In this document: one piece after another, positions 37,205 to 48,690 of the stretch | Layout: each line of letters begins with the position of its first letter | Numbering within the stretch: position 1 is the first letter of the stretch | NCBI RefSeq assembly: GCF_007970465.1 | Contig: NZ_CP042429.1 | Coordinates: 2,232,001-2,296,000 of the forward strand | Reading direction: 5' to 3' | DNA: 64,000 nucleotides | Origin: Corynebacterium nuruki S6-4 | GTDB taxonomy: Bacteria; Actinomycetota; Actinomycetes; Mycobacteriales; Mycobacteriaceae | The notes under the pieces: model-generated | The model's input: the letters and a program-made list of their open reading frames with translations, nothing else | Databases searched by the model: none | What the model was told of the DNA's origin: nothing | Position numbers and translations under genes: made by a program

Positions 37205-38620
37205 CTAGTGCAGCTCGAGGCGGCGGGACATGTCGGAGGCGAAGACACCGGTCGGGTCGATCCCGTGGCGGGTCTCCAGCCAGCCCTGGAGCCCCGGGTA
37301 CATCCGGTGGAAGTTCTCCGCGGTGGTGCGGGACTCCTTGGCCAGGTAGAGGCGTCCGCCGAACTCCATGACCTGCTCGTCGAGCCGGTCGAGGAAGGCG
37401 CCCAGGCCCGGACGCACCGGGAAGTCCACGCAGACGTTCCAGCCGGGCATCGGGTAGCTCAGCGGGGCACGGTTGCCCGGGCCGAACAGCTTGAACACGT
37501 TGAGCGCCGAGTAGTGCCCGGAGCCCTGGATGTCCTTGATGATCTGCTTGAACGGCTCGACGGCCTCGGTCGGCACCACGAACTGGTACTGCAGGAAACC
37601 CTTGGAGCCGTAGCCGCGGTTCCACTCCCCGATGAGGTCGAGGGGCTGGTAGAACTGCGTGAGGTTCTCGGTCTGGTTCCGTGCCGGCTTGCCCATCGCG
37701 TAGTAGGCCAGGCCCACCGCCGACAGGGTCAGCTTGTTCATCGTGAAGGACGGGAAGATGTCCGGCACGGTCATCAGCTGCGGGGCGTTGAACTTCAGCG
37801 GATCCGCCGCCAGCTTCGGGGCGAACTCCTTGAGCTGGTCGAGGGTGGCCAGCGACCCCCGGGAGATCGTCGCCCGGCCGAGCTTGGGCTCCGGGGAGAT
37901 GCAGTCGAACCACGCCGAGGAATAGGTGTAGTTGACCTCGGAACCGTCGGAGTGGGCGGCGATGGTCTCGTCGAGGTTCTCCGTGCGGTCGGTGTCGCAG
38001 ATGAAGTAGGCGGTCTCCGTCTTCGTCATCTCGATGGTCGCACGCAGGATCACGCCGGTCAGCCCCATGCCGCCGACGGTGGCCCAGAACAGCGTCCCGG
38101 CCGGGTCGTCGGCGGAGCCCTCCGGCTCCAGGTGCAGCACACGACCGTCGGCCACCAGCAGTTCGATGCTGCGGACGTGGTTGCCGAAGGAACCGGCGGA
38201 GTGGTGGTTCTTGCCGTGGATGTCCGGGCTGATCGCACCGCCGATGGTCACCTGACGGGTGCCGGGCAGCACCGGGACCCACAGCCCGTAGGGCAGGGCG
38301 GCCTTCATGAGCTGGTCGAGCGTCACGCCGGCGTCCACGTCGACGATGGCCGTCTCCGGGTCGATGGAGTGGATCGTGTTCAGCGGCTGCATGTCGATGA
38401 CCAGGCCGCCGCTGTTCATGGCGGGGTCGCCGTAGGAGCGGCCCATGCCGCGGGCGATCACGCCACGCCGGAGGTGGTCGGGCTTGTCCGCGTTGGCGTC
38501 GGCGACCTGCGCGACGGCGGCGGCGATGACGTCGACGTCCGGGGTGGACAGGACCTCTGCGGTGGTCGGGGCGGTGCGGCCCCAGCCGGTGAGGGTCCGG
38601 GTGTGCGTCTTCAGTTCCAT
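37205..38620 (-). CDS. dprE1: Decaprenylphosphoryl-beta-D-ribose 2'-oxidase
   Basis: A 471-residue FAD oxidase of the vanillyl-alcohol-oxidase fold. It oxidises the 2'-OH of decaprenylphosphoryl-ribose. The FAD-binding part contains [40 protein letters not shown] and [12 protein letters not shown]. The cysteine that benzothiazinone inhibitors attack in mycobacteria (Cys387 of Rv3790) is present here as Cys397 in [11 protein letters not shown]. The end, [14 protein letters not shown], is standard. I use the ATG at 38620; an in-frame GTG three codons earlier is possible. The product of this pair feeds the arabinosyltransferases, which are outside the window. It is divergent from the first of the two large unknown paralogues. 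Confidence 0.96.
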
Positions 38621-38721
38621 GCGGACCACCCTACAGTCGCCGTCGGACAGTTCCGGTCATGACGAGCACAACAGTGACGTCTGTGACACCCGGTCACGGG
38701 ACACGGGGTATGCCACTGTGC

Positions 38722-38736
38722 CATAGTAAGGGAATG
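38722..38736 (+). promoter_or_regulatory. Leaderless-type promoter of unknown paralogue A
   Basis: CATAGT (38722-38727) is six bases before the ATG at 38734. The same hexamer, spacing and following AAGG-ATGG context recur before paralogue B at 41190, which supports both starts. Confidence 0.5.
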
Positions 38737-41019
38737 GTTAGTTATGGTGGCCTCAGTGAGGACAGGGTAACGCGCTCGACCTGGCGCTGGGAGCGGCTCC
38801 GCGCGGCACATGACCGGGGTGCGGTCCCCGGGGGCGTGTACCTGCGCAGTCTGGCGGTCCTCTCGGACGAGCTCGCCGGACTCGAGGCCGGGTTGGCGTC
38901 CTGCCGCTGTACCCGGCAGGCGCGTCGCGCGCTGGAGCTGCGCCACCGTGTCGACCTCACCCGGCTCGGCCAGGTGTGCCGCACCGGGTCGGGCACCCCC
39001 GCCGAGCGGGCGGAGACCGTCTCGCTGCTGCCGGAACTGTGGCAGCGGCACGACCGGGACACCGCCCGTTTCCCCGCCCACCCGGACGCCGTCGGCGCGG
39101 CCGTCCCTCCGGTCGACGGTGACGGTGGTGACCTGCCCGACCTGCTGCTCGCCGGGTGGGAGGAGGCGGCGGCACTGCTCGCACCGGACGCCGCCACCGC
39201 CGAGGTGGACCGCCTCGCCGACCGGGCCGCGGCGGTGCTCCGCAGGCGCGGGGGAGGCTGTGCCGGCATGACCGGCATGACCGGCATGACCGGCACGACA
39301 GGGACAGCGGGCACAGCCGCCACCGTGGCCGTCGCCGAGGCGCGGGTCAGGGCCCTCGCCGCCACCGGACGCCACGCGCAGGCGGCGGAGATCATCGCCC
39401 TCCTCCCGGCTCCGACGGTGCCGCGCGACCCCGCACCACAGGACGTGCACCGTCATCACCGTGCCCTGGCGGCGCGGCTGAGGGTGGCGCTGGGCTCCGG
39501 TGACCTGGAACTCGCCGCCTCCACGGTCGCGCTGGTCGAGGACTCACCCGCACCCGCCGTCGGGGACCGGGACCTCGCCACGGCGGCGGTCGCGGAATCA
39601 CTCGTCCCGCTGGCGCACGTGGTGGCCCCGGAGGTGACCGCGCGGCGGGTGCGGCGGGTCGTGACCCGCGCCGCAGGCCGGGCCGACCTCGTCCCGGCGA
39701 TGGCACGGGTGGCGGACTATCTCGCGGCGGCGGGGGAACCGGCCGGTGCCGCCGCGGTCCGCGCGAACTGTGCCGCACTGCGCCCCGGCTGGCGGGCGGG
39801 CCGGGATGTGCCCGGCCCACCGGTGCCGCCGGCTGATCCCACGGTGCCCGCACTGCCCGGCATCGGTCCCGCGGTGCCGGAGGAGGAGATCCGGTGCACC
39901 GGCGCGGACCTGGACTGCGCCGGACCCGTCGACCTGGCCGCGCTCGACCTTTCCGACGTGGTGTGCGGCACCGTGTTCTGCACCCTGCTGGACTTCACCG
40001 GCGCCGCCACCGCGTTCGCGGGTCGGCTGGGCGAGCTGCTCGACCGGCCCGCCCACCCCGACGATCCCGCCGCCGAGGGGGAGCGGGCGGTGGCCGCGCA
40101 CGTCCTCGCGCGTGTCACCGGAGACAGGGAGGACAGGGACAACAGGGACAACAGCGAAGGTGTCCCGGCACCGTCCGGCCATCCCCTGATCGCCGAGGTG
40201 GACCGGATGCTCACCCGCAGCTGCTGCGCGGGTACCTGCGGTGCGGACCCGGCCCGCGCCCGCGAGGTCACGGGCCTGTGGCAGGGGGCATCCCCGCTGG
40301 TGCGGCGGCTGATCGAACTCGATCTCCTGCTCGGTGGTGCGGTGCCGTCCCCGGCCACCGCCACACTCGCGCTCCGGGCCCTGCCACGGCTCGCCCGGAC
40401 CATCCCCCGGGCGGTCCCGCTCGCCGGGGCCACCCTGCTCGAGGCTCTCTCCGGTGCAGGTGGGCAGCGGGCAGCGGACCTCCGGTCGGCCGCCCGGACG
40501 GTCGCGGCGGTGGCGCGGACCCTCCCGGCCCCGCCGGGTCCGGCTGCGGCGGTGCACACCGACGATCTGCTCGACCTCGCCGAGACGCTGCTCGATGTCG
40601 GGGCGTACCACGAGACGGCGGCACTGTGCACCGTGTTCCGTACCGCCCTGCACGGCGACGCCGGGGTCCCGCCGGCGGAGGTCCGCCCGGATGCCCCGGC
40701 ACTGCTGCTGCGCTACCACGCCGAGGCCCTGGCGGGGCTCGGCAATCTCCGCGGCGCCGCCCTGTTCGCCGAGCGGGCCGCACGGTGCGCCGCCGTCTGC
40801 GGTGCCCCGGGGTCCGGCCGCCTCGCCGCGGACTGCCGGCTGGTCTCCGCCGCCGCAGGCATCGCCGCCGGTGAGGGCACCGATCTCGACCGGGCGCGGT
40901 GCACCCTCGACCTGCTGGACGCCGCCGACCGTGCCAATGACCCCGACGGCACCGCGGGCGACCCGGACCTGGTCCGTCGCCGCCGGGACCTGGCCGCGGT
41001 GCTGGACGGCGTCGCGTAG
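38734..41019 (+). CDS. Large helical-repeat-like protein, unknown paralogue A
   Basis: A 761-residue, Ala/Arg/Leu-rich protein that I do not recognise. It has no signal peptide or membrane segment. The pattern of paired amphipathic helices with Ala at tight positions looks like a TPR- or solenoid-type scaffold. Blocks shared with the next gene are HPDAVGAAVPPVDGDG (~residue 125), VDLAALDLSDVVCGTVFCTL (~400), and SPLVRRLIELDLLLGG with RTIPRAVPLAGATLLEAL (~518-575). A short tandem repeat encodes GMTGMTGMTGTTG near residue 180, and an acidic GDREDRDNRDN linker lies near 465. Cysteine-rich spots (RSCCAGTCGAD, ASCRCTRQ) could bind a metal. It opens a block of unknown genes inserted in the cell-wall cluster. 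Confidence 0.75.
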   Translation: MVSYGGLSEDRVTRSTWRWERLRAAHDRGAVPGGVYLRSLAVLSDELAGLEAGLASCRCTRQARRALELRHRVDLTRLGQVCRTGSGTPAERAETVSLLPELWQRHDRDTARFPAHPDAVGAAVPPVDGDGGDLPDLLLAGWEEAAALLAPDAATAEVDRLADRAAAVLRRRGGGCAGMTGMTGMTGTTGTAGTAATVAVAEARVRALAATGRHAQAAEIIALLPAPTVPRDPAPQDVHRHHRALAARLRVALGSGDLELAASTVALVEDSPAPAVGDRDLATAAVAESLVPLAHVVAPEVTARRVRRVVTRAAGRADLVPAMARVADYLAAAGEPAGAAAVRANCAALRPGWRAGRDVPGPPVPPADPTVPALPGIGPAVPEEEIRCTGADLDCAGPVDLAALDLSDVVCGTVFCTLLDFTGAATAFAGRLGELLDRPAHPDDPAAEGERAVAAHVLARVTGDREDRDNRDNSEGVPAPSGHPLIAEVDRMLTRSCCAGTCGADPARAREVTGLWQGASPLVRRLIELDLLLGGAVPSPATATLALRALPRLARTIPRAVPLAGATLLEALSGAGGQRAADLRSAARTVAAVARTLPAPPGPAAAVHTDDLLDLAETLLDVGAYHETAALCTVFRTALHGDAGVPPAEVRPDAPALLLRYHAEALAGLGNLRGAALFAERAARCAAVCGAPGSGRLAADCRLVSAAAGIAAGEGTDLDRARCTLDLLDAADRANDPDGTAGDPDLVRRRRDLAAVLDGVA

Positions 41020-41189
41020 CCGGCCTTCCCGGGGAGGTCGTGGACGCTACCGGCGGTTTTCAGGACCGGGGGCCTACTGGCTCCTGCGGATGCGGGGTTG
41101 ACGAGCCCAGGTGCTGTCCGGGGACGGGAAATCCGACCTGCCGGTTCGTTCCGTGGACATCGGGGTCAGTGGCGTGACCGGGTGCGTGA

Positions 41190-41204
41190 CATAGTGAAGG
41201 CATG
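41190..41204 (+). promoter_or_regulatory. Leaderless-type promoter of unknown paralogue B
   Basis: CATAGT (41190-41195) is six bases before the ATG at 41202, the same layout as for paralogue A, suggesting the promoter was duplicated with the gene. Confidence 0.5.
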
Positions 41205-44200
41205 GCAGGGATCTCAGGTGGCCCAGGTGGCTCAGGTGGCCCGGGCGACGGCACCGGGGCCGCGGTCGCCCGGGCGGCCCGGCGGTGGGAGGAGCTGCGC
41301 GGCGCCGTCCGGCGGGGCGAGACCGGACCGGCCGGTCTGACCCGCGGTCTGCAGGAGATCTCCGGGACTGTCACGGACCTCGCCGCGGCCGGGGACCGGG
41401 CTGCCGCGCAGCTCGCCTACCGGGTCGACCTCCTGCGCTGCCGGCTGTGTGACCCGGCGGACGCCGCCTGGGCGCTCGACGCACTGCCGCGGCTGTGGCA
41501 GCTGCACCGGACCGACGCGGCGTCCTACCCCGCCCACCCCGACGCCGTCGGTGCCGCCGTCCCGCCCGTCGACGGTGACGGGGAACCGCTGCCCGAGGTG
41601 TGGCCGTCGGTGTGGCGGGATGTCGCGGTCACCGCCGCCGTCGACCCGGCGGTGTCCGTCGTCGACCTCGACGCGTTCGGTCGGCAGGCGCAGGAGGCGC
41701 TGACGGGCTACGGCGACGGTGCGGCGGAGAAGACCGCCGTCGACATCCTGCTGGTCACCGCCCGGGTCGACGAGGCGCAGCGGCTGCTCGACCGCATGCC
41801 GCCGCCCGGGATGCCCGGACTGTCGGATCCGCCGCAGTGGGAGGAGGTGGCCGGCGTGCAGCGCGACCTCGACCAGCGTGCGATGGTCGCCCTGCTCCGC
41901 GGGGACGCCACGGGTGCCGCCGGATACCTGGCGGACATGGAGGCACTGCCGGAGGCAGGCGGTCTGCCCACGCTCATGCAGGCCGAGGCGCTCATCCCGC
42001 TGGCGGCCACCGGTCCCGCGGCGGATACCGCCCGGCGGGCCGCCGCAGTCGCGCAGCGCTGCATCGGCCTGCCGTCGGCGGCGACGGCACTGCTGCAGGT
42101 CACCGGATACCTGGCCCGGGCGGGGGAGGCGCGGGCCGCCCTCGGGCTGCTGGAACGGAGCTGGCCGGTCCTGCAGCTGCGCCACCACCGGCCGGTCACC
42201 GAACCGCACGTCGTGGAGACCCTCGCCGGGATCTTCGCCGATGCCGACGCCGCGGGACTGGGCACCGCCCGCCTGCCGTGGGCCGGACTGTCACCGGTCA
42301 CCGACTGGCTCGCCGACGAGGTCCGGCCGCTCGCCGCCGGTGCCGAACCGACCGTCGCGGAGCTGGCGGAGGCCACCGGACGGTTGAGCAGGCGGGCCGT
42401 CGCCGCGCTCGACGCCCGCAACACCGCCGCACCCGGGGCCGCCACCCGCGCGGAGACCGGCCGGCTGTGGGACGCAGAGGTGCCGCCGGCGGACCCGGAC
42501 CTCACCGGACAACTGCCGTTCGCGGCCACCCCGCCACTGCACAGCGGCATCGTCGGCGGACTCCCGGACTGGGCGGACCCCGCCTGGTTCGAGCTGCCGG
42601 CCGAGGTCGGCCGCTGGACCGCCGACGCCGTCCCGGAGATCCCGCCGCTCGGCCCCGTCGACCTCACGACCCTGAGCGCCGCCGACCTGTTCACCGCCAC
42701 GGTGCTGTACTCCCTGCTGGGTATGGCGGACGCCGTCGCGCTCGCCGCCCCACGCCTGGCGGACCTCGCCGGGGACCCGGTCCTCGGCCCCGCCTGCGCA
42801 GAACTCGCGGACCGCATCCGGCACAGCACCGGCGCGTCCGGGGGCGGGGAAGACACAGAGGACAGAGAGGACAGGGAGGACACAGCGGGCACAGCGGAGA
42901 TCCCGGTCATCGCCGACCTCGACCGGATGCTCGAGGTCCGGGTCGGGGCCCAGGAGGACGCCCGCCGCGGCGCAGAACTCTCCGACGCCCCCGCCCGCGA
43001 CATCCTCGCCGCCCGGGTGGCGGCAGTCCTCGAGATCCGCGACGGACTCCACCCGCTCATCCGGCACCTCGTCGATCTCGACGTCCTGCTCGGTGGGGTC
43101 CTGCCGGACATCACCGCGCTGCGTCCGGCCCTGGCGGCCCTGCCGACCGCGGTCCGGCTCATCCCCCGGGCGGTTCCCCAGCTCGGCGTCGGGCTGCTCA
43201 CCGGATACAGCGACATCACCGACGGGGCAGTCGACGACCGCTCCTTCGATCTGCGGATCCATATCGCCGTCGGCCACCTCGTCACCGGTGTGGCGCTGTG
43301 CCTGCCACCGGAGCCGCCGGCGACGGCCGGACACCCGGACCGGGGCGGTGACCAGGTCAGTGACCTGCTGCTGCTCTCCCGCTGCCTCGGCGGGGGCGGC
43401 ATGCTCCACGAAGCGCTCGCCCTGCTGGACCGGGGACTCGACCTGCTGGACGCCGGAGCTCCGGACCCGGGCTGTGACCAGGGCAGAGACCAGGGCGGTG
43501 ACCAGGGCGGTGACAACGTCAGCGACCTGCTGCGCCTGCAGCTGATGACCGACCGGTTCCCGCTGCTCGCCGACCTGGGCAACGACCGTGCGGCGGCCGC
43601 GGCGGCCGGGATGACCGCCGAATCCGCGGCGCACCGGGGTGACCTGCGCACCGCGCTGTACTGCCGGACGATGCAGGTCGCGGCACTGCTCGACGACGGG
43701 GCCTTCCCCGCGGCCGCGGCCGTCCTCGCCCGGATCCACGACCACGGCCCCGATCCGGCCCGCTTCCCGCACGAGAACTATCTGCTCCGGGTCCAGGAGG
43801 CGTGCCTGTCGGCCGCCCTGACGGACACCTGGTTCGCCGACGAATGGCCCGACCGTCGTACCGGACTCGCCGAGGCGTGGGACGGCTACCGCGCCGCCGC
43901 ACTCGTCGCCGACGGGGAGGAGCCCGGTACCGGTCCGGACGCCGGCACGGCTGCCGGGGCACTCGCCGGAGCCACCGCGGAGGCGGTCCGTGGCATCCTG
44001 CGGATCAACCACCGGCTCGTCCGCGCCGGGCGGATCGACGAGGCCCTCGACCTGGTCTCCTGGGGTGCGACAACCGTCACCCGGGGCGGTGTCCTCCAGC
44101 CGCACCTGGATATCCTCACCGAACAGGCACTGCTGCTGCACGTTGCCGGACGCGACGACGAGGCACTGCTCATCTTCGAGTCCGTCGTCCAGCAGGCCCG

Positions 44201-44333
44201 CCGCGCCGGGCTGGGCAGTGTGGTCGCCGCCGTCCTGCAGCGAGCGGAGGCGGCGTCCCGGCTCGCGGAGGATCCGGTGCTGCGCCGCCGCTACGCGGAC
44301 TTCGTCGCCTCGGTCACCGGAACTGCCGACTGA
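41202..44333 (+). CDS. Large helical-repeat-like protein, unknown paralogue B
   Basis: A 1043-residue protein homologous to the preceding gene but longer. Shared blocks are SYPAHPDAVGAAVPPVDGDG (~residue 107), VDLTTLSAADLFTATVLYSL (~487), a DLDRMLEVR segment (~570), and HPLIRHLVDLDVLLGG with RLIPRAVPQLGVGLL (~615-665). The extra C-terminal part (~700-1043) has further helix pairs such as RAAAAAAGMTAESAAHRGDL, VRAGRIDEALDLVSWG and AGRDDEALLIFESVVQQARR, which read like TPR units. Linkers contain micro-repeats (GISGGPGGSGGPG at the start; EDTEDREDRED near 550; CDQGRDQGGDQGGDN near 758). No signal peptide or membrane helix. A cytosolic scaffold or regulator is the most I would infer. Confidence 0.78.
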   Translation: MAGISGGPGGSGGPGDGTGAAVARAARRWEELRGAVRRGETGPAGLTRGLQEISGTVTDLAAAGDRAAAQLAYRVDLLRCRLCDPADAAWALDALPRLWQLHRTDAASYPAHPDAVGAAVPPVDGDGEPLPEVWPSVWRDVAVTAAVDPAVSVVDLDAFGRQAQEALTGYGDGAAEKTAVDILLVTARVDEAQRLLDRMPPPGMPGLSDPPQWEEVAGVQRDLDQRAMVALLRGDATGAAGYLADMEALPEAGGLPTLMQAEALIPLAATGPAADTARRAAAVAQRCIGLPSAATALLQVTGYLARAGEARAALGLLERSWPVLQLRHHRPVTEPHVVETLAGIFADADAAGLGTARLPWAGLSPVTDWLADEVRPLAAGAEPTVAELAEATGRLSRRAVAALDARNTAAPGAATRAETGRLWDAEVPPADPDLTGQLPFAATPPLHSGIVGGLPDWADPAWFELPAEVGRWTADAVPEIPPLGPVDLTTLSAADLFTATVLYSLLGMADAVALAAPRLADLAGDPVLGPACAELADRIRHSTGASGGGEDTEDREDREDTAGTAEIPVIADLDRMLEVRVGAQEDARRGAELSDAPARDILAARVAAVLEIRDGLHPLIRHLVDLDVLLGGVLPDITALRPALAALPTAVRLIPRAVPQLGVGLLTGYSDITDGAVDDRSFDLRIHIAVGHLVTGVALCLPPEPPATAGHPDRGGDQVSDLLLLSRCLGGGGMLHEALALLDRGLDLLDAGAPDPGCDQGRDQGGDQGGDNVSDLLRLQLMTDRFPLLADLGNDRAAAAAAGMTAESAAHRGDLRTALYCRTMQVAALLDDGAFPAAAAVLARIHDHGPDPARFPHENYLLRVQEACLSAALTDTWFADEWPDRRTGLAEAWDGYRAAALVADGEEPGTGPDAGTAAGALAGATAEAVRGILRINHRLVRAGRIDEALDLVSWGATTVTRGGVLQPHLDILTEQALLLHVAGRDDEALLIFESVVQQARRAGLGSVVAAVLQRAEAASRLAEDPVLRRRYADFVASVTGTAD

Positions 44334-44366
44334 GGGAATGAGGTACAGACGGCCCCGGCGGCCCGG

Positions 44367-44762
44367 CTACAGGTTCATGATCTCGCGGACCTCGTCGGGC
44401 AGCTCCGCCACGCACGTGATCTGCGGTTTCCCCGCCTCCTGGTGTTCCCGCAGCGCATGGTTGATGACCGAGCGGCTGCTCGAGTCGAGGATCGGCAGTT
44501 CCTGGGCGATGAGCCGGGTCATGAACTCGTTGAGCGGGGCCGTGGTGTGCTGGGCCGCCTCGTAGTGTGCCGCCGGGTCGGTCCCGCCGACGACCGCGGT
44601 CTGCGCCATCGAGCCACGCTCCCCGGCGGGTTTCCCGTCGTTGGCCTTGGCGATGTTGCGCCGCATCTGGTCCTTGAGCCGGTCTCTGCCCTTGTCGACC
44701 TTGCTGCCCTTGTCGCCTCTGCTGTCACCGGCGGCGTCCCCGCGGTTTCTCCTGCCGAACAT
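44367..44762 (-). CDS. Small hypothetical protein of the dprE1-gtrA insert
   Basis: A 131-residue soluble protein. The N-terminus is strongly basic and polar (FGRRNRGDAAGDSRGDKGSK, DKGRDRLKDQMRRNIAKAND). The C-terminal half is helical (APLNEFMTRLIAQELPILDS, SVINHALREHQEAGK) and ends EVREIMNL. No domain is recognised. The ATG at 44762 has AGGATGGGGG just upstream; an ATG three codons earlier is the alternative. The gene is divergent from the membrane protein at 44848 and convergent with paralogue B. Function unknown. Confidence 0.6.
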   Translation of the reverse strand: MFGRRNRGDAAGDSRGDKGSKVDKGRDRLKDQMRRNIAKANDGKPAGERGSMAQTAVVGGTDPAAHYEAAQHTTAPLNEFMTRLIAQELPILDSSSRSVINHALREHQEAGKPQITCVAELPDEVREIMNL

Positions 44763-44847
44763 GACCCCCATCCTACCCCGGTACTCCACTAGACTCGGGG
44801 CCGCACAAGCCCCACCGGCACCCGACCAGCAACGGAAGGTGTGAGTC

Positions 44848-45471
44848 ATGCCGAACCCACCTGTCACCACCACCAACGTCCCCGGACCAGCAGAAATCGG
44901 CGGGGTGCCGACCGCGCCCCTCGCCGCCACGATCGTCGGCTACTACCTGGCCGCCGATCTCGTGACGGGGCCGTGGAAGCGGCGTGTGGTCCGGGCCCTC
45001 ATCCTCGCCGCCGGGGCCGGTACGGCACTGGGACTGCAGAAGAGGACGGGGCAGACGTCGCAGCAGCAGGCCGCCACCGCGCCGGCGACCCCCGGCTGGC
45101 AGGGCGAGGAGGGGCGGGCCGGTGCGGCGGCCTCCCCCGATCCGGCGTCCGGCCATGTCGCCGGCACCGCCACCGGCCACGGTGAGGTCCACGGCCAGCG
45201 CGGCCAGTTCACCGGACAGAACGCCGGGATGGTGGTCCTCGGGGCGGCCGCCGTCATCGGAGGGACGTGGCTCAACGCCCGCATCGACCGCGCCGCCGCC
45301 GGGTTCATCTCCCGCGTCGGCGGGAAGCTGCCGGTGATCGGCCGGGTACTGCGCCGGTTCCCGAACGCCGCCTGGGGTGCGGCACAGGTCGGTATCGTCG
45401 CCGCCGGTCCGGCGCTGCAGGAACGGATCGAATCCGCCACCGCACCGACCGCCAACCCGCAGTTCCGGTGA
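44848..45471 (+). CDS. Membrane-associated protein of the dprE1-gtrA insert
   Basis: A 207-residue protein with a short hydrophobic segment near residues 25-60 (PLAATIVGYYLAADLVTG, VVRALILAAGAGTALGL) and another near 125-145 (AGMVVLGAAAVIGGTWL). A Gln/Gly/Ala-rich, His-containing linker lies between (SGHVAGTATGHGEVHGQRG). The C-terminal part has RVGGKLPVIGRVLRRFPNAA. No family is recognised. The ATG at 44848 follows GGAAGGTGTGAG. The next gene begins eight bases after the stop, so the two form an operon. Confidence 0.7.
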   Translation: MPNPPVTTTNVPGPAEIGGVPTAPLAATIVGYYLAADLVTGPWKRRVVRALILAAGAGTALGLQKRTGQTSQQQAATAPATPGWQGEEGRAGAAASPDPASGHVAGTATGHGEVHGQRGQFTGQNAGMVVLGAAAVIGGTWLNARIDRAAAGFISRVGGKLPVIGRVLRRFPNAAWGAAQVGIVAAGPALQERIESATAPTANPQFR

Positions 45472-45479
45472 GCGGCGGC

Positions 45480-46139
45480 ATGACGGACACGACTGTGACG
45501 ACAGAGACGACCGACGCGACCGATACTGCCGAGGACGCGACCGTCGCGGACGCCGCCGCCCTCGGCGGCACCCGCCCCCAGGACCCGCCGCTGCTCGTCG
45601 CCGCGACCGTCGGCGGGGTCACCGCCGTCTGGCAGGTCGAAGTGGACGCCCGCGTCCTGCTCGGCGACTTCAGCGGCGCCTGGCTCGTCGACGGCGACGG
45701 CATCCGCGGGTTCGCGGCCGACGCCGACTGGATCCCGCAGCGCGGCGACCGCGACGCGGTCCTGCGCACCCTCCTCGCCCACCCGGTGCTCCTCGCCGAG
45801 GGCGACGACCCGCTGCCCGTCGACGGGGTGGACGTCATCGACCTCGACGCGACCGTGGCGGGCATCCACGACCGGGTCCGGCGCAACCACGACGACTTCG
45901 CCGCCGCCCACCCCGGCAAACGTCAGCCCGCCTGGGGGGCGCCGGACGCCATCGGCTACCGCACCCAGGACGGCCCCGCCCCGCACGGCCTCGACGGGGA
46001 CGCCGCCACCGCCGTCACCCGCTGCCTGGCCGCCGCACGGGGCCTGCGTGCCCTGGTCCGGGACTGGAACCGGGTGGAGAAGCTCCGCGCCCAGCGGCTC
46101 GGCGGGGACCTGCAGGCCCTGCCCGTCGAACTCGTCTGA
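45480..46139 (+). CDS. Hypothetical soluble protein of the dprE1-gtrA insert
   Basis: A 219-residue acidic protein with a Thr/Asp-rich N-terminus (TDTTVTTETTDATDTAEDAT). A compact domain follows with strands (PPLLVAATVGGVTAVWQVEV, RVLLGDFSGAWLVDGDGI), and a C-terminal helical part has RCLAAARGLRALVRDWNRVE. No motif points to an enzyme. The ATG at 45480 lies eight bases after the membrane-protein stop, so translation is probably coupled. A longer frame from 45267 overlaps that gene and is not used. Imperfect 11-bp repeats (GTCAGAGYCC type) follow the stop at 46144-46185. Confidence 0.65.
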   Translation: MTDTTVTTETTDATDTAEDATVADAAALGGTRPQDPPLLVAATVGGVTAVWQVEVDARVLLGDFSGAWLVDGDGIRGFAADADWIPQRGDRDAVLRTLLAHPVLLAEGDDPLPVDGVDVIDLDATVAGIHDRVRRNHDDFAAAHPGKRQPAWGAPDAIGYRTQDGPAPHGLDGDAATAVTRCLAAARGLRALVRDWNRVEKLRAQRLGGDLQALPVELV

Positions 46140-46256
46140 GCCTCGTCAGAGTCCCGTCTGAGTTCCGTCAGAGCCCGGTCAGACCACTGCCGGGCCCCGG
46201 CGGGTGCACCCGCAGACCGACGGCACGCCTCCGGAACCGGCGCTACGCTGGGCGGT

Positions 46257-47501
46257 ATGAGCGCACAGCAACTTCCGCGCGCGTCCCGGACGCGACCGCG
46301 GACCACGACCGGGGCCCGGGCACACCACGCCGGGTCGGGTCTGGCGGATGTGCTGAACCTCGCCGACCTGCCCGGCTTCGACCCGGAACTCGGTGATGTC
46401 CTCGACACGGCGCTGACCTCCGGTCCCGTCGACATCACGGCGTCTGCACCGTCTGCGTCGTCGGTGACATCGCCGGCGTCTGCGGCCTCTGCGGCCGCGA
46501 CAACCGCACCGGTGGACACCACCCTCCTCGTCCTCGCCGAACACCACGTCGACGGCATCGGCTGGTTCACCCGCACCCTGGGCCTCAACGGGGCCCTCTC
46601 CGTCGCGGAGACGGTGCGGGCGGTCCTCATCGCCTTCAGCTGGCCCGGGGCGTCCGGCATGCTCGACGGCGGCCGCGACCGCACGGACGTGGTGGGCGGT
46701 TGGTCACTGCAGGCCCGCCGCGATGACCGGCTCCGCGTCTACAGCCCCACCGCCGGGCCGGTCGGGACCCGCCTCGACGAAGCCCTCGGCCGGGACGGCA
46801 CCGGCACCATCGTCGCCGACGGCTACCCGATCAGCGTCACCACCGCGGGCACGATGCCGCGCGACGGCCACACACCGGACGCCGTCTGCCTCGCCGGCAG
46901 TTTCGCCCCCGACCCCGGAGCGGCGGCCGACCACCCCGCCGGGGTGCCGGGCGATGTCGACCTCGCGGCGGTGAACGTCGCCCTGGCCGGGGAAGAGACC
47001 GTCGACGAGGTTCTCGCCGAACTCGACCCCGAACTCGCCGACCTGATCCGCGCCGGGGCACTCTACGAGTTCATCCCGCTGCTGCAGGCGCTCGACCTGG
47101 AGCGTCCGGCACAGGTCCCGGACCGGACCCGGGCGGTTCTCGCCGGCCTGCCCGCCGAGACCACCGCCGCCGGCCGGGCCGCCGCCTGGGCACGCATCAT
47201 CGCCCTGTCCACCCTGTCCACCCTGTCCGAGCGGGGTGCCGTCGACGCGATCGCCGCGACCCTGCTCGGCTCGCTCGGCATCACCGCACCCGACGGCGCC
47301 CCGCTCGACGAAGCGCAGGCCAGAGCGCTGTGCCGGGAGTCCGCGCACCGGCTCGCGACCTGCGGGGCGGACGCCTGGAGCAGTCTGCCGGGGGAGACGG
47401 TCGCCACGCCGCTCGTGCCGCGCTGCAGCCTGCTGGACCGGCTCGAAATGTACCGTTTTCTGCTGCAGCGCCGGGAGGTGGCGTCCGGCGGAGGGGCCTG
47501 A
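46257..47501 (+). CDS. Hypothetical protein of the dprE1-gtrA insert, last gene
   Basis: A 414-residue protein without recognised domain. A basic N-terminus (PRASRTRPRTTTGARAHH) is followed by a Ser/Ala linker of micro-repeats (SAPSASSVTSPASAASAA, ~residues 62-80). A central region has HHVDGIGWFTRTLGLNGALS, and Trp-rich strands follow (WSLQARRDDRLRVYSPTAG). The C-terminal half is helical, with ELADLIRAGALYEFIPLLQA, a STLSTLSE repeat and CSLLDRLEMYRFLLQRREVA. A -10-like TACGCT (46244-46249) lies seven bases before the ATG with no ribosome-binding site, so it is probably leaderless, as for paralogues A and B. This may mean the block is controlled together. Confidence 0.68.
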   Translation: MSAQQLPRASRTRPRTTTGARAHHAGSGLADVLNLADLPGFDPELGDVLDTALTSGPVDITASAPSASSVTSPASAASAAATTAPVDTTLLVLAEHHVDGIGWFTRTLGLNGALSVAETVRAVLIAFSWPGASGMLDGGRDRTDVVGGWSLQARRDDRLRVYSPTAGPVGTRLDEALGRDGTGTIVADGYPISVTTAGTMPRDGHTPDAVCLAGSFAPDPGAAADHPAGVPGDVDLAAVNVALAGEETVDEVLAELDPELADLIRAGALYEFIPLLQALDLERPAQVPDRTRAVLAGLPAETTAAGRAAAWARIIALSTLSTLSERGAVDAIAATLLGSLGITAPDGAPLDEAQARALCRESAHRLATCGADAWSSLPGETVATPLVPRCSLLDRLEMYRFLLQRREVASGGGA

Positions 47502-47609: not shown

Positions 47610-48278
47610 GTGACAGACGCCGTCGCAGAACGTGGCGGGGACAGTGCCGCCGGAGACGGCGACGCCGTCCCCGACGCGGCCACCCTCGCCCGACAGCGTC
47701 GCGACGCGGCGAAGGCGCGCAGCATGCGCATCCTCCGCCAGTTCATCAAGTTCGGCATGGTCGGCGCCTCCGGGTTCGTCGTCAACCAGGCCGTGATGGT
47801 GCTGGCGAACAAGCTCACCCAGTGGCTGTGGGGCTTCGACCAGTACTCGCCGTTCGTCAACCTCTTCGGGTCGGCGTTCCACGTGCGCTGGTACCACGTG
47901 TTCAGCATCCTGGCGTTCATCGTCGCCAACATCTGGAACTTCTTCCTCAACCGGCGCTACACGTTCCGCATGAAGCACGGCACCCCGTGGTTCCGGCCGA
48001 TGCTGAGCTTCATGCTCGTCGGGGCTTTCGGCCTGCTCATCACCCTGCTGGTCTCCACCGCACTGGTCAACGACGATTCGCCGATCGCCCTGTCGCACAG
48101 CATCTGGGACGATTCGACGGGCCTGCGGACGCGCGCCTACTGGGGCAACTTCATCGGCGTGATCGTCGCCATCCCCGCGAACTTCCTGTTCAACAAGCTG
48201 TGGACGTTCCGGTCGCACGGCCACGGCGGGCATGGCGGGCACGGTAAGGGCGAGGTGCGGGTGACGCATGTCGGCTGA
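47610..48278 (+). CDS. GtrA-family membrane protein 1
   Basis: A 222-residue protein with four membrane helices of the GtrA family, after an acidic, cytosolic N-terminal extension of ~40 residues. Typical features are IKFGMVGASGFVVNQAVMVL in helix 1, NIWNFFLNRRYTFR, and NFLFNKLWTFR at the end. GtrA proteins are thought to flip or position polyprenyl-phosphate sugars; the mycobacterial homologue Rv3789, beside dprE1, has been linked to arabinose-lipid metabolism. The C-terminus has a His/Gly micro-repeat (SHGHGGHGGHGKGE) that could bind metal. It starts with GTG at 47610 after AGAAAAGGA. The next gtrA-like gene overlaps its 3' end by 11 bases. Confidence 0.9.
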   Translation: MTDAVAERGGDSAAGDGDAVPDAATLARQRRDAAKARSMRILRQFIKFGMVGASGFVVNQAVMVLANKLTQWLWGFDQYSPFVNLFGSAFHVRWYHVFSILAFIVANIWNFFLNRRYTFRMKHGTPWFRPMLSFMLVGAFGLLITLLVSTALVNDDSPIALSHSIWDDSTGLRTRAYWGNFIGVIVAIPANFLFNKLWTFRSHGHGGHGGHGKGEVRVTHVG

Positions 48279-48690
48279 GGGCGTCATCGTGCGGGTGCCG
48301 TTGGCGACCCAGCTGTTCCGGTTCATCTGCACCGGTGTGGTGGGGGCCGTCGTCGACTTCGGGTCGACCTACCTGCTGTCGCTGGCGGGCCTGTCACACG
48401 GCGGATCGAAGACCGTCGGCTTCGTCCTGGGGACGCTGACCGCCTACCTCATCAACCGGCGGTGGACCTTCCAGGCCGCGCCGTCGACGAAGCGTTTCCT
48501 CGTCACCATGTGCTCCTACCTGCTGACATACCTGGTGCAGGTCAGCCTGTTCCTGGTGTGCATCCCGTGGCTGGAGGACCACGACTTCTCCGACTTCTGG
48601 ACGCAGGCGATCAGTTTCGTCATCGCGCAGGGGACGGCGACGGTGCTGAACTTCGCCATCCAGCGGTGGGTCATCTTCCGGGTGCTGTAG
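48268..48690 (+). CDS. GtrA-family membrane protein 2
   Basis: A 140-residue GtrA-family protein with four helices: LFRFICTGVVGAVVDFGSTY, TVGFVLGTLTAYLINRRWTF, FLVTMCSYLLTYLVQVSLFL and AISFVIAQGTATVLNFAIQR ending WVIFRVL. The N/R-W-TF motifs mark the family. It overlaps the previous gtrA-like gene by 11 bases, so translation is coupled and the two may form a heteromer. Together with GlfT1 and the ABC exporter downstream they point to lipid-linked sugar handling in arabinogalactan synthesis. The dispersed repeat copy B begins 65 bases after the stop. Confidence 0.9.
   Translation: MSAEGVIVRVPLATQLFRFICTGVVGAVVDFGSTYLLSLAGLSHGGSKTVGFVLGTLTAYLINRRWTFQAAPSTKRFLVTMCSYLLTYLVQVSLFLVCIPWLEDHDFSDFWTQAISFVIAQGTATVLNFAIQRWVIFRVL

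Follow-up and report, generated by a model that had tools for sequence, protein, structure and literature searches.

What fills the stretch between dprE1 and gtrA in Corynebacterium nuruki S6-4, and do the genes found there work as a system of their own? The window analysed here, 64,000 nucleotides of contig NZ_CP042429.1 (positions 2,232,001 to 2,296,000 of a 3.17 Mb genome), holds six genes in this place, here called A to F, where the original prediction, made from the letters of the DNA alone, had located them; it had offered them as a possible undescribed system tied to envelope assembly. Mycobacterium tuberculosis has the same flanks in Rv3790-Rv3789, which we take to be the counterparts of the window's dprE1 and gtrA, and the Corynebacterium stretch differs in carrying C to F in between. 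Comparison across the genus resolves the block into known folds and small genus-specific proteins rather than an undescribed six-gene system, its parts very probably having different histories; C is the constant part of the locus, and D, E and F have each been lost independently.

Gene content was surveyed in a genus sample of 151 genomes and a family sample of 181 genomes from 31 genera. Searches of the genus sample with single proteins matched C in 150 genomes, F in 128, E in 35, B in 16, A in 11 and D in 10, the rates for D and E being underestimates; profiles, with which the search was repeated for D, matched D in 99 and the A/B family in 18. Gene order was compared with one profile per gene in 108 fetched loci (20, 8 of 14, and 80) plus the window, duplicate copies of a locus being merged by score signature. 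This left 93 distinct loci with dprE1, of which 90 also have gtrA and make up the set used for presence counts, L144, L175 and L177 being left out with no gtrA in range. A similarity search with C supplied 80 of the 108 loci, and matches to C or F the others, so that these loci give no independent rate for C; that comes from the genus sample, where the one genome without a match (G113) is an assembly of about 380 contigs.

Within the 90 loci C is present in 89, F in 78, D in 66, E in 48 and A/B in 11, the gene contents being CDF (27 loci), CDEF (17), CEF (12), A/B with CDEF (11), CF (10), CDE (6), CD (4), CE (2) and DF (1); the sole DF locus, L190, does contain C, below the open reading frame limit. 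The proposal that the six genes are a single dedicated envelope system working as a unit draws on the 11 loci in which all six families co-occur, in one order save for an overlap case (L059), but A/B are absent from 79 of the 90, and C accompanies all the tested combinations of D, E and F other than the absence of all three. This pattern of loss rejects the single six-gene system, which we regard as very improbable. The block is nevertheless not random. C and dprE1 occur together in 93 of 96 distinct loci, C and D are divergent with no more than 263 bp between them in 62 of 65, and genus-wide the place of D, E and F is between C and gtrA. The co-occurrence beside dprE1 that had been named as the test of a shared system thus holds for C and is patchy for A/B, D, E and F, while the finding named as fatal to it, that the genes belong to known unrelated families or lie apart in relatives, applies to A/B, partly to E and F, and not to C. 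Insertions are also seen in this stretch: L069 (8932-12838) and L071 (7724-13955) carry unrelated genes between C and D/E, those of L069 including what look by eye like pilin-like genes with LPxTG-type ends, and L148 and L174 likewise show larger gaps.

Gene C (44367..44762, minus strand, 131 residues) lies on the same strand as dprE1. It is called as an open reading frame in 91 of the 93 dprE1 loci and is found by tblastn in the remaining two, L144 and L190. Where A/B are missing (78 loci), C and dprE1 share a strand and are no more than 325 bp apart in 64. In the family sample it was matched in 14 genomes, all of them Corynebacterium, with no match in the remaining 30 genera, which sets Corynebacterium apart from the M. 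tuberculosis arrangement. In an alignment of 21 members a conserved segment lies at the C-terminal side and closes with ELP-x2-IR-x-IMDL. The protein had been described as small, basic and encoded on the opposite strand; the strand is as described, and at a net charge of +1 its basic character is not clear. Pfam gave scattered single-member matches only (best 0.0074), and sequence searches against solved structures gave none at E 1. The C. glutamicum member of the family is cgp_0239, adjoining the gene for DprE1, which the accessible part of PMC11175481 gives as Cgp_0238. A literature search found no paper joining the tags cg0239, cg0240 or cg0241, or variants of them, with Corynebacterium glutamicum. 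The main text of PMC7205459 contains no cgp_023 or cgp_024 tags and no dprE, its supplements, which may hold transposon data, lying outside the search; the text of PMC10166564 contains no DIP015-DIP018 tags, its supplements again lying outside the search, and the available portion of PMC12826051 has nothing on the block genes.

The two large genes, A (38734..41019, plus strand, 761 residues) and B (41202..44333, plus strand, 1043 residues), are paralogues, as had been predicted: a search with A finds the B frame at E 1.2e-23 and 41% identity, A being the shorter at the C-terminus. A clear doubling of this kind is seen in the window only, among the loci compared. At the position between dprE1 and C the A/B family occurs in a single branch only (C. 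variabile, C. terpenotabidum, C. glyciniphilum, C. kalidii and relatives), and relatives of 831-912 residues occur at other loci in other species (L098-L102). In a C. variabile locus (L112:10260-13734) the match is split over two overlapping frames, either a broken gene or a sequence error. A structural model of B built from a 16-member alignment is almost wholly helical (pLDDT 81.8, pTM 0.84), and Foldseek matched it to tetratricopeptide repeat (TPR) proteins and other solenoids of many kinds at TM-scores below 0.45. By this model for B, and by its alignment with B for A, the two are predicted helical-repeat solenoids. Neither reached the cut-off of a TPR profile, window A having no match and window B matching PPR_1 at 0.013, below the cut-off of that profile, so that their repeats are, unlike those of known TPR and alpha-solenoid proteins, too diverged for the curated models; weak TPR matches do occur in relatives (TPR_19 in 5 of 13, best 0.015; TPR_2, best 2.3e-4), and the name given to a relative in one public record starts with 'Tetratric'. 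A and B are therefore assigned, on the strength of the model, to predicted TPR-type solenoid proteins as a fold class only, because the Foldseek matches are varied and their TM-scores low. Low-complexity runs are present in A (39265-39318, rich in G, M and T) and in B (42855-42893, charged, with E, D and R), the latter at a low-confidence part of the B model.

Gene F (46257..47501, plus strand, 414 residues) has its closest proteins in metagenomes (up to 98% identity), with a C. nuruki protein at 94% over 93% of its length; in the family sample its profile matched 12 Corynebacterium genomes and, weakly and along only part of the profile, 3 genomes of two other genera. Residues of about 85-243 share the fold of MM3350 (2I1S), a member of the pRiA4b ORF-3-like family (PF07929), a sequence search with F reaching 2I1S at E 0.057. 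Window F itself has no PF07929 match; 4 of 18 relatives do, the best at E 2.4e-7, and 5 of 6 further relatives match at 14.4-24.4 bits, below the cut-off of 26.6, so that matching relatives, where shown, fall mostly under the cut-off. A second difference from the family is an extra, predicted helical C-terminal domain.

Gene E (45480..46139, plus strand, 219 residues) is probably a distant member of DUF6218 (PF19726), as judged from alignment. The window protein has no match to DUF6218 at E 1, let alone at the Pfam cut-off, and 2 of 15 relatives match weakly (best 5.7e-4). An alignment of E compared with an alignment of four DUF6218 proteins gave a probability of 90.3 and E 1.4e-6 over 166 columns, with no control pair, the shared part including a VWQ...GAW start and a W...R end; the E profile in turn matches five of six fetched DUF6218 loci (best 1.7e-8). 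The DUF6218 cut-off is passed in 9 of 249 genomes of the order, the window's own not among them, and the DUF6218 loci elsewhere have no dprE1. In four of the six (L204, L205, L206 and L207, from other families of the order) a neighbouring gene looks by eye like a DEDD-type exonuclease, its start VVDTETTG presumably being the exonuclease motif. No paper was found that mentions DUF6218 together with Corynebacterium, and sequence searches of solved structures with E gave no match at E 1.

Gene D (44848..45471, plus strand, 207 residues) diverges from C, and E follows it after 8 bp. The two had been predicted as a membrane protein coupled to a soluble one. In window D a single stretch of 19 residues exceeds a mean hydropathy of 1.5, the alignment of 13 members is poor with few fixed positions, and the designation of D as membrane-type comes mostly from its relatives, by eye. 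SecE-chain profiles matched D at E 6e-4 to 1.8e-3, which was taken as shared transmembrane composition, and kinship with SecE was rejected. It might be supposed that D, partnered by E and F, is the missing flippase that takes decaprenylphosphoryl-arabinose (DPA) through the membrane: the protein is membrane-type, its gene stands between dprE1 and gtrA, matches occur in 99 of 151 genomes, and the DPA transporter of C. glutamicum is called unidentified in the 2024 paper (PMC11175481, as far as its accessible text goes). A flippase would be expected in every species with DPA-dependent arabinan, and D is unfit as the DPA transporter because in 24 of 90 loci it is absent although dprE1, dprE2 and gtrA are all there. 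Matches are also missing in 52 of 151 genomes, of which diverged copies that escape the profile may account for some, the window protein has few hydrophobic segments, and a role in this step has already been suggested for the GtrA-type protein Rv3789 of M. tuberculosis (PMC11127046, in the part available). We consider this role highly improbable for D.

It had further been claimed that three of the genes appear leaderless with similar promoters, and this layout, as far as sequence can show it, is beyond chance. Sites resembling -10 elements stand upstream of A (CATAGT, 38722-38727), B (CATAGT, 41190-41195), C (TAGGAT, 44770-44775) and F (TACGCT, 46244-46249). The arrangement CATAGT-6-ATG recurs at all ten A/B genes examined; these come from nine loci, several of them closely related, and the search pattern permitted other hexamers. 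TANNNT stands 6 or 7 bases before an in-frame start in 72 of 90 relatives of C, 66 of 80 of F and 39 of 67 of D, whereas the controls gave 0 when the frame was shifted and 0-6 when the window was displaced, and no more than 0-1 for C and F; the same site is found at dprE1 in 29 of 93 loci, at E in 6 of 49 and at gtrA2 in 8 of 109. Of 2,147 C. glutamicum mRNAs, 707 (about 33%) are leaderless, with no preference for a functional category (PMC3890552, accessible part), and the layout is therefore ordinary and no sign of a shared system.

To the left of the block, dprE1 (37205..38620, minus strand; NF053785, 737.7 bits) probably starts, to judge by comparison of loci, at ATG 38620 rather than GTG 38629, with a -10-like site (TAGGGT, 38628-38633) that makes it apparently leaderless. 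On the right follow gtrA1 (47610..48278) and gtrA2 (48268..48690), both on the plus strand, both PF04138 and overlapping by 11 bp. The copy number of gtrA varies in the genus between one, two and three, and its strand varies too, being minus in seven compared loci.

None of the six window proteins reaches a Pfam or NCBIfam cut-off, so that the claim that they match no family stands in this form; it fails in that relatives are known for F (pRiA4b ORF-3 fold), E (probably DUF6218) and A/B (TPR-type solenoids). Single-member Pfam matches (virus polymerase palm, Cdc6 lid, PPR_1, GGDEF, Abhydrolase_9_N, Colicin_V and others) were treated as accidental or as saying nothing. A role in anti-phage defence was rejected, the PADLOC library having no match for any of the six at E 0.01. 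The searches made assigned no block protein to a catalytic family.

What the block would do can be proposed from these parts. We infer that none of its proteins is an enzyme of the arabinan pathway and that they would most likely play a non-catalytic, supporting part at the inner membrane. C, a small protein specific to Corynebacterium, near-universal in the genus and normally directly upstream of dprE1, would act in the cytosol with DprE1 and DprE2, in the regulation or assembly of the epimerase that makes DPA; such a DprE1 adaptor is a tentative proposal, less likely than not. D, E and F form a variable set on the gtrA side, any one of which may be absent; D would anchor the soluble partners E and F near GtrA, and a membrane complex of this kind is rather unlikely. 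About as doubtful is the combined version, in which C would partner or regulate the DprE1-DprE2 epimerase throughout the genus and D, E and F would modulate DPA use as optional, membrane-linked proteins. A and B may have been added later, in one branch at this locus, as interaction scaffolds. The two-hybrid study of C. glutamicum arabinogalactan synthesis, by its accessible part, tested WecA, WbbL, GlfT1, GlfT2, AftA-D, Emb, UbiA, DprE1 and DprE2 (PMC4213368).

A composite block with a support role in the envelope pathway has, in our judgement, about an even chance of being right, and several observations weigh against it. M. tuberculosis uses DprE1 and DprE2, and the other Mycobacteriaceae genera of the family sample have no match to C. 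Inserts put 0.7-6.2 kb between C and dprE1 in 14 of the 78 loci without A/B. Three loci have C with no dprE1 (L150, L179 and L184), and while L150 and L184 end 0.6 and 2.5 kb past C, L179 has none within 9 kb and is a true exception. Since dprE1 has a leaderless-type promoter of its own in 29 of 93 loci, the window included, it need not share a transcript with C. DUF6218 proteins elsewhere sit in unrelated gene contexts, and since Corynebacterium genomes as a rule keep their gene order, a conserved neighbourhood says little about a common function. In L179 (9693-17621, Corynebacterium sp. 74A) the place of dprE1 is taken by genes that resemble, by eye, those of sugar metabolism.

In another explanation, nearly as likely as a support role, the genes are bystanders, lineage-specific proteins of unrelated functions in a stable chromosomal stretch. 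It accords with the separate losses of D, E and F from loci that retain dprE1 and gtrA, with the A/B relatives at other loci, with the separate leaderless-type promoters of A, B, C and F, given that 33% of the mRNAs of C. glutamicum are leaderless whatever their functional class (PMC3890552, accessible part), and with the unrelated genes inserted in L069 and L071. Against it stand the retention of C in 150 of 151 genomes and its place with dprE1 also in loci that have lost D, E or F.

DprE1 is a drug target of benzothiazinones and related compounds. As a small protein that almost all Corynebacterium genomes retain next to dprE1, C is a clear candidate partner for it, and one that is easy to delete. 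The survey takes D out as a general candidate for the flippase, and the two large genes A and B are a branch-specific addition.

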